Below are positions 27,462 to 31,595 of a DNA stretch of 34,705 nucleotides, piece by piece; the stretch's first letter is position 1, and each line of letters opens with the position of its first letter. Where the stretch lies: NCBI GenBank assembly GCA_020832985.1, contig JAJHRE010000010.1, positions 1-34,705 of the forward strand, given 5' to 3'. Source of the stretch: Desulfurococcaceae archaeon (GTDB taxonomy: Archaea > Thermoproteota > Thermoprotei_A > Sulfolobales > NBVN01). The position numbers and the translations under genes are program-made. A model generated the notes under the pieces. It made no database searches. It saw only the letters and a list, made by a program, of their open reading frames with translations, and was not told where the DNA came from.

Positions 27462-29171
27462 TTAATCAAATTCGTGCTTACTTCCGAACTTACCTTCAGA
27501 TTCCTCAGCACCCTCACCAGCCTTACCACCCTTACCTTCACCAGTCTTCATCGGTGATGCAGCTATTATATCGTCAACCTTAAGTATCGCGGCTGCAGCT
27601 TCTGCAGCTGCCTTAATAACCTGCTTCTTAACTATCACCGGCTCAGCCACATTTATAGCAAGCATATCCTCAGCAATCTTACCTTCAACAACGTTTATCC
27701 CTGCATATATCTTACCCTCGCTATGTAATTTCCTTAACTCCATTAAGGTCTCTAAAGCATCCATACCAGCAGTTGACGCTAATACAACAGCTATTTCCTC
27801 TAAAGCATCAGCAAATGCCTGAATTGCTAACTGTTCCTTACCGCCTACACTCTCAGCATACTTCCTCAACCTTAACGCAACTTCTATCTCTGGAGCTCCA
27901 CCTCCAGGTATTACCTTAGGATCTCTTAATATGTTCCTCATAGTATGTAATGCATCATTTAAACTCCTCTCAGTCTCATCAACTATCATGTCATTAGCTC
28001 CTCTAACTAATATCGTTACTGCCTTAGGATTCTTACAACCCTCAACAAATACCATCTTATCGTTACCAACCCTCCTCTCCTCAACTAACTCAGCATAACC
28101 TAAATCATTAGGAGTTAAATCCCTAATACTTGTGACTATTCTCCCTCCTGTAGCCCTCTCCAACTTCTCCATATCAGACCTCTTAACCCTCCTAACAGCT
28201 AAAATACCCTTCTTAGCCAGGAAATGCTGAGCAACATCATCAATACCCTTCTGACAAATAACAACATTAGCACCAACAGCAGCTAACTTCTCAACGTATT
28301 CCTTAAGTATATTCTCTTTCTCTTCAATAAATTTCCTCATCTGTAGAGGGTCACTTATCCTTATCTCAGCATCGATCTCAGGCTTCTCAATCTCTAAAGG
28401 AGCATCAAGCAATGCAATCCTAGCCTTCTCAACCCTCTTAGGCATCCCAGGATGTACAACCTCCTTATCAAGAACGACACCATAAACCAACTGAGAATCA
28501 GCTAACGAAGCACCCTTCTTCTTCTCAATCTTGATATTATCTAACCTAACCTCATAAGTACCATCAGGTTTCTTCTCAGCAGCTACTACAGCTGCTGATA
28601 TGACCATATCAATCAACTTATTTATGATGTCAGGTGTTGCTAAGTACTTACTAGCTAATGTTGTGTTGAGAACCTTAACTAGTTCAGGCTTAACCTTAGC
28701 TAACCCTTCAGGAGTTTCAACACCACTAACGTCTAACTTCACTGCAATCTCATCGAGGAACTCTACAGCTTTAGCTGCAGCCTTCTTATAACCCTCAATC
28801 ACTATAGTTGGATGTATATTCTGATCGAGTAGTGCCTCAGCCCTAGATAGTAAGGCCCCAGCTAAAACTACTGCTGATGTAGTACCATCACCTACCTCAG
28901 CATCTACAGCTTTAGCAGTCTCAACTAATAACTTAGCAGCTGGGTGCTGAACCTCCATCTCCTTAACTATTGATGCTCCATCATTAGTTACTGTTATATC
29001 ACCGAAACTATCAACAAGCATCTTATCAAGTCCTTTAGGACCTAAACTAGTCTTTAAAACCTCAGCTAACGCCCTCGCAGCTATTATGTTATTCCTTAAA
29101 GCATCCCTACCTTGAGTTCTTGATGTACCCTCCTTCAAGACCAGTACAGGTATTCCATATAGTGCAGTCAT
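27462..29171 (-). CDS. Thermosome (group II chaperonin) subunit
   Basis: [63 protein letters not shown] and [17 protein letters not shown]. Confidence 0.97.
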
Positions 29172-29283: not shown

Positions 29284-29607
29284 ATGTTTAAAGTAGATGA
29301 TATAATAAACATCTATGAGAAATATATAAGTGTTAACGATGTAGATAACGCTAATTTCTTCATAGCTATTATAGCAGGTCTCCTAGGATTTATGAAATAT
29401 CATAAAGTCTTAAGCCCTGAATCTGTAGCAGAACTTGCAAAGACTTTAAGGATAGGTTTAATTGAAGGTCCTAACTACCTAAATCCATATGTTATGGAAT
29501 TACTCGGTATTTTAGAGGAGGAATTTAATGAGGCTTTATTTAATGAATTCTTGTTTAAGCTAAAGAGCATACTTAGAGAGGAAAGACTTGATAGACTTGA
29601 AGTCTAG
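29284..29607 (+). CDS. Hypothetical helical protein, overlapping the downstream gene
   Basis: 107-aa ORF, 20-nt overlap with the ORF at 29588; no family recognised. Confidence 0.65.
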   Translation: MFKVDDIINIYEKYISVNDVDNANFFIAIIAGLLGFMKYHKVLSPESVAELAKTLRIGLIEGPNYLNPYVMELLGILEEEFNEALFNEFLFKLKSILREERLDRLEV

Positions 29608-30397
29608 TAGCGATACTTTATGTACGTCATGTAATAGAAGAGTAGCTGTATACTTGAGAAGGAGTTCTGGGGAGAGGTTATGTAGTATATGTTTTGAGAG
29701 GTCTTTAATTAAGGTTGTTAAGAGGTCTTTAAGAAATGTGAGGGATTTAAGACCAGGTATTGAGTTAGCATCCCTAGTAATTCCTGAGAGGTTAGTAACT
29801 AGTATTACAACACTCTATATCTTGAACAAGATCGAGAAAAGATATAATTGTAGGGTAATCGCTGTATTACCTATTAATGAACGTTACCGTACGATAATAA
29901 ACGATATAATTAACTTGATAATAAAACCTAAGGTAGGTATTAATGATGAGTTCATAGACATCATAAACTACGGAGATAGTAAACTAAATATCAGTTCTGC
30001 TGAAGTCTACGGTAAGTACATTAGACTCATAAACTTAATTACTAAATACAGCGTAATAGCTCTACCCCTCACACTAAACGATCTAGGCGAGATAATACTT
30101 ACTTCGTTACTAAGTCGTGAAGTAGAGAACATACCGACACAACCATCGTTTAAATTAAATTCTCAAACACTTATAATACCTTTCTATAACGTCCCTGAAT
30201 ATGATGTCTACATATACTCATACATTAGGGGTATATACGACCTAACCTTAGATGATATATTAACTTCATTAAGGGATACTTACATCAGTGAAGACCAGGT
30301 AATAATTAAAGAGTTAGTTAGAGATCTAAGCTATAACAATCCTGAACTAACTCAAACCCTCGTTAAGTCTTTCGATAGGATCGTAAGGGTTCAGTGA
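29588..30397 (+). CDS. Degenerate TtuA/Ncs6/CTU1-like PP-loop protein (probable pseudoenzyme)
   Basis: N-terminal zinc finger CTSCNRRVAVYLRRSSGERLCSICFERS as in TtuA/Ncs6; downstream segments collinear with TtuA, but SGGKDS, CxxC and GHNxDDxA motifs are missing. Confidence 0.65.
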   Translation: MIDLKSSSDTLCTSCNRRVAVYLRRSSGERLCSICFERSLIKVVKRSLRNVRDLRPGIELASLVIPERLVTSITTLYILNKIEKRYNCRVIAVLPINERYRTIINDIINLIIKPKVGINDEFIDIINYGDSKLNISSAEVYGKYIRLINLITKYSVIALPLTLNDLGEIILTSLLSREVENIPTQPSFKLNSQTLIIPFYNVPEYDVYIYSYIRGIYDLTLDDILTSLRDTYISEDQVIIKELVRDLSYNNPELTQTLVKSFDRIVRVQ

Positions 30398-30775
30398 TTA
30401 GATAGTAGGTCTTAAAGACCATCTAATACCGTGACGTTGTAATATATCCTTCATACTAATCTTCAATACGTAATAATCTAATCTTAAGTCCATAAAACAA
30501 TCCTCTTGCTCAAACACATTCTTACCATTTAGATATAACCGTATTAGAGGTAATTTATTAATACCTTCATCCTCTTTAATCGTTGAGTTATTAGGTATGT
30601 TCTCAATATCAAATAATGCAAAGTTAATTATATGCCCAATCCTTGATTCAAGCTTCTCGAATAGATTTATCATATACCTCTTTACGTCGGTATTACCTTC
30701 TACGAAGCCTATGAGTACTACATCATTCACTTTTACAAATCTCTTAAACTCGTTAATATCTTGAAGTACCTTCAA
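30398..30775 (-). CDS. Thioredoxin-fold protein lacking CxxC
   Basis: VVLIGFVEGNTDVKRYMINLFEKL...INFALFDIENIP...INKLPLIRLYLNGKNVFEQ: strand-helix order and cis-Pro motif of thioredoxins, but no CxxC. Confidence 0.55.
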   Translation of the reverse strand: MKVLQDINEFKRFVKVNDVVLIGFVEGNTDVKRYMINLFEKLESRIGHIINFALFDIENIPNNSTIKEDEGINKLPLIRLYLNGKNVFEQEDCFMDLRLDYYVLKISMKDILQRHGIRWSLRPTI

Positions 30776-31595
30776 CTCTTAATTCATCCCCACATAATTC
30801 TCTATATTTCTGCCTAATTAATGTTTTCTCATCGTTACTTAAGAGAACCTCTATATCTATACCTTCCTCCCTTACCTCTTTCGGATGTTTTATCCCGTTA
30901 TTATTTAACAACACGTAATCATATCTAGTAAGCTCCTTTAACTCCTCACATGATACTGAGTTGACGTAATTCTTGAGTAGCTCTCTAAAATCTAAGAACT
31001 CCTTAAGCTGTTTTTCAGTGACTACACTACCACATACTAAGCAGTACATATCCTTAGTTAAGGAGTTAAAGAGGCATTTAGGGCATGTCACTGGTAAAGT
31101 CTTCGAATGTTGCTCTATCCATGCAATCCTCCATAACCTCCTAAGTGTTGGTAGGACATCCTCTCTACCCAATCTAACTGCCTCCTTATATAACTTAGGT
31201 GCGTACTCTAGCACTGCCTTACCTATGTTATTAACTATAAAGTCTAGATGTTCAGACTTAAGATCTTCCTTCAGGTTTAGTAGTGCTACAGCTATTAACG
31301 GGTAGACATTCTCTGAAAACCTTCTAAACCTCTTAACTATAGTCTCAACATCAGGTTTAGTTGTTGGGGAACCATATAGAAGTTCTACAGGACGCCTAAG
31401 TATTTCTAAGTACTCATCTCTACTCAACCCTAAGTACTCCAACCCCAAAGCACTTACCAACTCATCTACATTCTTATCCAACCAACCATTAACATCAGCT
31501 TCCTTCTTAACCTTCTTCTTAGTAGGTGCAACCCTACTTGAGGTATCACCCCCAACTTCAGCAACTTCCTTACCCTTCTCCTTCTTCTTAGGCAT
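30753..31595 (-). CDS. Hypothetical zinc-ribbon protein
   Basis: 280 aa with Lys-rich N-terminus and CPKCLFNSLTKDMYCLVCG four-Cys motif; overlaps the 30398-30775 ORF by 23 nt. Confidence 0.75.
   Translation of the reverse strand: MPKKKEKGKEVAEVGGDTSSRVAPTKKKVKKEADVNGWLDKNVDELVSALGLEYLGLSRDEYLEILRRPVELLYGSPTTKPDVETIVKRFRRFSENVYPLIAVALLNLKEDLKSEHLDFIVNNIGKAVLEYAPKLYKEAVRLGREDVLPTLRRLWRIAWIEQHSKTLPVTCPKCLFNSLTKDMYCLVCGSVVTEKQLKEFLDFRELLKNYVNSVSCEELKELTRYDYVLLNNNGIKHPKEVREEGIDIEVLLSNDEKTLIRQKYRELCGDELRVEGTSRY

Follow-up and report, generated by a model that had tools for sequence, protein, structure and literature searches.

Two related enzymes that thiolate tRNA are NcsA/Ncs6/Ctu1, the archaeal-eukaryotic 2-thiolase of U34 (structure 6SCY), and TtuA, the tRNA m5U54 2-sulfurtransferase (5MKO, 5B4E, 5GHA). 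NcsA of M. maripaludis (MmNcsA) forms a homodimer in which each subunit holds one cluster (PMC10067955). In human Ctu2 the cluster cysteines are missing and the zinc sites are kept; the protein has been modelled where the second subunit of NcsA sits, perhaps to orient the tRNA, and a recombinant human Ctu1/Ctu2 complex is reported as not yet obtained (PMC10067955). Archaea are described as having a single NcsA, as in Haloferax (PMC4048286), and the Ctu1/Ctu2 pair as the product of a eukaryotic duplication (PMC10067955).

We analysed a 34,705-nucleotide stretch of DNA from a Desulfurococcaceae archaeon (the window; contig JAJHRE010000010.1), in which an initial annotation had proposed an intact TtuA/Ncs6-like gene, stripped of its catalytic motifs and overlapping an upstream gene. 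The coordinates proved exact: the frame at 29588-30397 is open throughout with zero internal stops, encodes 269 aa and overlaps its upstream neighbour by 20 nt. The locus comprises the following features.
29588..30397, + strand: pseudoenzyme CDS (TtuA/NcsA-like), 269 aa, TTG start (reading of the ORF, profiles, AF2 model)
29284..29607, + strand: gene of a 107-aa all-helical upstream protein (AF2 pLDDT 89), overlapping the pseudoenzyme start
29588..29607, + strand: 20-nt overlap between the upstream gene and the pseudoenzyme, identical in the nearest relatives
29578..29581, + strand: GAGG, a Shine-Dalgarno-like sequence 6 nt 5' of the TTG, within the upstream gene (sequence)
27462..29171, - strand: thermosome subunit (chaperonin), the usual neighbour on the other side (synteny)
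30398..30775, - strand: thioredoxin-fold protein without CxxC, convergent neighbour (PF00085, E 0.024; synteny)
30753..31595, - strand: conserved zinc-ribbon protein, neighbour (PF08271, E 0.0094; synteny)

Of 13 named relatives of the pseudoenzyme, 9 likewise have TTG as their first possible start, and the C-terminus of the upstream protein (usually RLDRLEV or near-identical) is conserved through the overlap in the nearest relatives; the TTG assignment is therefore probably correct. The closest of the named relatives come from metagenome bins that carry the label Sulfolobales or Desulfurococcales. The 20-nt overlap suggests that the 107-aa gene and the pseudoenzyme may be translated in a coupled manner.

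We then compared the AF2 model of the 269-aa protein (pLDDT 84.5, pTM 0.85) with the PDB. The best 17 matches were all TtuA/NcsA chains (TM-score 0.65-0.75, with 0.75 for NcsA 6SCY_A), and TilS came next, so that the predicted fold is the HUP/PP-loop fold of TtuA/NcsA on which the initial annotation had staked its reading. The collinearity with TtuA/Ncs6 that it had drawn from the letters is likewise beyond chance: a 14-member profile matched MmNcsA (6SCY) over its whole length at E 5.8e-12 and TtuA 3VRH/5MKO at full length, and a wider 21-member profile matched TtuA 5MKO at E 1.2e-22. Curated-family scans of the window protein and other members revealed no family, of this or any other kind, covering the whole protein. 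As a single sequence it matched TtuA_LIM_N (PF22082) weakly over residues 12-36 (E 0.0028, 18.1 bits against a Pfam cut-off of 27) and TIGR00269 weakly over residues 196-265 (E 0.3, 11.4 bits against a cut-off of 62.75); TtuA_LIM_N was matched in 16 of 21 family members, with a best E of 1.3e-7, which bears out a zinc finger of the TtuA/Ncs6 type. Taken together, model and profiles show a whole-length homologue with the predicted TtuA/NcsA fold. The family may descend from either NcsA or TtuA: profile-profile comparison placed it about equally close to both (E 2.7e-26 versus NcsA and 1.7e-25 versus TtuA, from the same taxonomic order); in the tree, the pseudoenzyme clade attaches between NcsA and TtuA, on the NcsA side, with weak support.

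Lost and retained sites were counted in a joint alignment of 43 pseudoenzyme members and 49 active enzymes. The positions concerned in the window are listed here.
29777..29803, + strand: former PP-loop, with VIPERLVTS in place of ..SGGKDS (joint alignment, counts)
29996..30040, + strand: region of CxxCGxxRR in active enzymes (Fe-S Cys 1 and 2), Cys-free here (alignment)
30062..30082, + strand: former GHNxDD, now LPLTLND, with P160 nearly invariant in the family (alignment)
29621..29692, + strand: N-terminal zinc finger, C12-x2-C15 ... C32-x2-C35 (PF22082)
30335..30382, + strand: C-terminal helix NNPELTQTLVKSFDRI (the weak TIGR00269 match; profile comparison)

SGGKDS and the three Fe-S cysteines were present in all 49 active enzymes, whereas the SGGKDS pattern was found in 0 of the 43 pseudoenzyme members, among which its Asp is kept in 0, the first Gly in 1, the second Gly in 2 and the Lys in 4. 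Fe-S Cys1 is kept in 0 members and Cys2 in 9, while 23 carry a Cys aligned with Cys3; no member combines all three, and none keeps the His of GHNxDD. The window protein has lost all three Fe-S cysteines, SGGKDS and most of GHNxDD, but the claim that these motifs are entirely replaced goes slightly too far, as S72, the final Ser of SGGKDS, and D165, the final Asp of GHNxDD, are still present. The four cysteines of the N-terminal zinc finger are kept in 41-43 of the 43 members; the C-terminal zinc finger is missing in the window protein and present in about 24 of 43. The C-terminal helix is collinear with the helix that follows P-G at the C-terminus of TtuA/NcsA. Across the wide family, the invariant positions are confined to the four zinc cysteines, A20 and E253 (the latter within this helix), with S27, G28 and P160 nearly invariant. 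The protein thus resembles NcsA in whole-length fold, N-terminal zinc finger and order of elements, but differs from it in lacking the PP-loop, the Fe-S cysteines, most of GHNxDD and, in the window protein, the C-terminal zinc finger. TtuA, alike in fold and with about equal profile similarity, is set apart by the same losses.

The site losses are common to more than 45 relatives in 12 family-level groups and several orders. At first look 55 of 60 close genomes had matches, the weakest of which were active enzymes. Families f1-f5, f8 and f10 contain confirmed members, as do f12-f14, which belong to other orders of the class; individual cases occur in f7 (G102, G107, G117) and f9 (G182). In a scan of 300 genomes of the phylum, the 15 best loci outside the class all had an intact PP-loop, although more distant members may exist. 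Cultured genera apparently carrying the pseudoenzyme are, as we take them to be, Aeropyrum, Ignisphaera, Acidilobus and Caldisphaera. Genome G085, which consists of one contig of 1,539,049 bases, carries the pseudoenzyme in two pieces in different reading frames (126 and 169 aa), either a sequencing error or a recent loss.

In the tree, the 43 pseudoenzymes separated cleanly from the 49 active enzymes with support of 100, and subclades mostly tracked families; on this sequence phylogeny the pseudoenzymes form a single clade of single origin. Values of dN/dS for close pairs (the window's own genus being represented by one genome) were 0.17-0.40 for the pseudoenzyme versus 0.10 for NcsA and 0.18 for TtuA, and branch lengths revealed that the pseudoenzyme evolves much faster than NcsA. 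Judged from the clade support of 100, the synteny across orders and the low dN/dS, both the duplication and the site loss date far back, and purifying selection acts on the product even though its rate of change exceeds that of the enzymes. The initial view of a maintained pseudoenzyme of the TtuA/NcsA type is upheld jointly by fold, profiles, tree, dN/dS and synteny.

The gene order, with the thermosome gene followed by the 107-aa gene where present, the pseudoenzyme on the same strand as the latter, and then the thioredoxin-like and zinc-ribbon genes running towards it, recurs in several families as well as in other orders. The zinc-ribbon gene stays beside the locus in several orders. The thioredoxin-like neighbour, with CxxC in 0 of 14 aligned sequences, is a second degenerate protein at this position kept across orders. 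The 107-aa gene adjoins the pseudoenzyme only in f1, f3, f9 (G182), f10 (L036) and f12, and neither structure nor family searches gave its protein a convincing fold or family match. Several families had suggested that this gene and the C-terminal zinc finger exclude each other; strict exclusion was rejected, as L036 has both and several loci have neither. No NcsA gene adjacent to the pseudoenzyme was found in the stretches read, and the open-access papers searched yielded no inactive archaeal Ncs6/TtuA paralogue or neighbourhood of this kind; subscription papers may describe one, and specialised databases such as arCOG may contain it as an unnamed cluster.

A search of the genome for an active counterpart turned up an NcsA-like enzyme, intact, on contig C81; of 60 relatives, 59 had an enzyme of the NcsA/TtuA type. 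The NcsA sequences of the order form two clades, the local type III (the window genome; f1-f5, f8, f10 and f11) and type I (genus g4 of f1 and the greater part of f7 and f9), which two profiles separated cleanly genome by genome. Among type III genera outside Sulfolobaceae, the pseudoenzyme occurred in 38 of 40 (the remaining two are bins with a completeness of 56% and 76%), and among type I genera in 0 of 19. In 36 type I genomes searched with the wide profile, every match lay in an active-enzyme ORF, as judged from length and position and, for doubtful cases, from reading them. Since Fisher tests on this genus tally take no account of shared ancestry and the tally itself used hand-transcribed genus lists, we relied instead on three taxonomically separate contrasts, some of them on incomplete bins, in which NcsA type and pseudoenzyme switch together: genus g4 versus the rest of f1; within genus g25 of f7, G117 (type III with the pseudoenzyme) versus G046 (type I without); and G182 versus the rest of f9. 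These contrasts are suggestive, and no more, of a link between the presence of the pseudoenzyme and the NcsA clade. TtuA was found both with and without the pseudoenzyme and showed no such link.

There are counter-cases. In Sulfolobaceae (f11), sampled in 11 genera, NcsA is of type III, and in f6 it is type III-like; the pseudoenzyme is absent from both, so NcsA of this kind does not always depend on it; in f13 the pseudoenzyme occurs alongside a third kind of NcsA (L223). Two further observations concern type I. In genus g4 of the window's own family f1, the NcsA at L129 (genome G012) is of type I and groups with f7 sequences, which looks like horizontal replacement of the local NcsA, and no pseudoenzyme was detected in the genus. 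Genome G127 has two type I NcsA-like genes (L093 and L094).

What the protein does can be read in several ways. We give slightly better than an even chance to a dead NcsA/TtuA paralogue that is retained as the partner of another protein, most probably NcsA, in tRNA thiolation. A role apart from thiolation, with the old fold as a scaffold that binds RNA or protein and perhaps acts with the 107-aa, thioredoxin-like, zinc-ribbon and thermosome neighbours, strikes us as unlikely while deserving serious attention: the thermosome/thioredoxin-like/zinc-ribbon order is kept across orders, the pseudoenzyme evolves fast and the thioredoxin-like protein is likewise without its active-site motif, yet f4 and L033 of f5 have the pseudoenzyme without these neighbours, and the link to the NcsA clade would be left unexplained. 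That same link weighs against a partner or regulator of TtuA in U54 thiolation, or of both thiolases (for example in handling the sulfur carrier), which we regard as improbable. Equal nearness of the profiles to TtuA and NcsA and the occurrence of TtuA in most pseudoenzyme-bearing genomes would fit it, but TtuA occurs with and without the pseudoenzyme, and several nearly complete genomes that carry the pseudoenzyme (e.g. G017, G033, G047) show one enzyme only, of the NcsA type.

A rebuilt active site that still thiolates or adenylates tRNA would account for the Cys aligned with Fe-S Cys3 in 23 of 43 members and for the frequent survival of the last Ser and Asp of the two motifs; with no alternative invariant polar set across the wide family, we hold it to be very improbable. 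Hardly any weight falls on a decaying pseudogene or an assembly artefact, to which the high rate of change and the split copy in G085 might point: frames are open in tens of genomes, dN/dS stays at 0.17-0.40, and the TTG start and gene order are conserved. For the family as a whole, decay or artefact was ruled out by dN/dS, distribution and synteny.

Under the reading as a partner in thiolation, the pseudoenzyme would pair with active NcsA, the wobble U34 thiolase, and substitute for the second protomer of the homodimer. Its zinc finger and basic N-terminal helix may help to hold or orient the tRNA, while ATP activation and Fe-S sulfur transfer would be left to NcsA alone, a division of labour as proposed for eukaryotic Ctu1/Ctu2. 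The heterodimer and the positioning of tRNA are suggested by analogy only, whereas NcsA as the candidate partner comes from co-occurrence. Besides the counter-cases, this reading has against it that no NcsA gene adjoins the pseudoenzyme in the stretches read, where the thermosome is the usual neighbour, that the pseudoenzyme evolves much faster than NcsA, and that the window protein is missing its second zinc finger. The initial annotation had envisaged a partner of an active paralogue; comparative evidence favours this idea, with NcsA rather than TtuA as the probable paralogue.

The likeness to Ctu2/Ncs2 lies in being a degenerate NcsA paralogue that has zinc sites without cluster cysteines and stands beside an active NcsA, following the description in PMC10067955. 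It is a likeness by analogy and not membership of the CTU2 family: the CTU2 model (PF10288), which spans only 110 positions, had no match in the window genome at E <= 10 or among the scanned members. The two may stem from independent duplications or from a shared one. The family fails the defining catalytic features of TtuA/NcsA and, at best guess, works like Ctu2. Its anatomy is Ctu2-like, and it was not found where type I NcsA replaces the local one; read most simply, it would serve type III NcsA as a subunit or helper without catalysis of its own.

The pseudoenzyme represents an unannotated gene family widely conserved in heat-loving archaea. Tentatively, and as a possibility that we place somewhat below even, Thermoproteia may have had a two-subunit U34 thiolase, made of an active NcsA and a dead paralogue that positions tRNA, and may have lost this pairing wherever horizontal transfer brought in a self-sufficient NcsA. 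If so, the split into a live and a dead subunit would have arisen twice or before eukaryotes, and a design that has until now been credited to eukaryotes alone would also be archaeal. A dead NcsA/TtuA paralogue that tracks one NcsA clade would make the origin and purpose of Ctu2-type subunits testable in heat-stable proteins.
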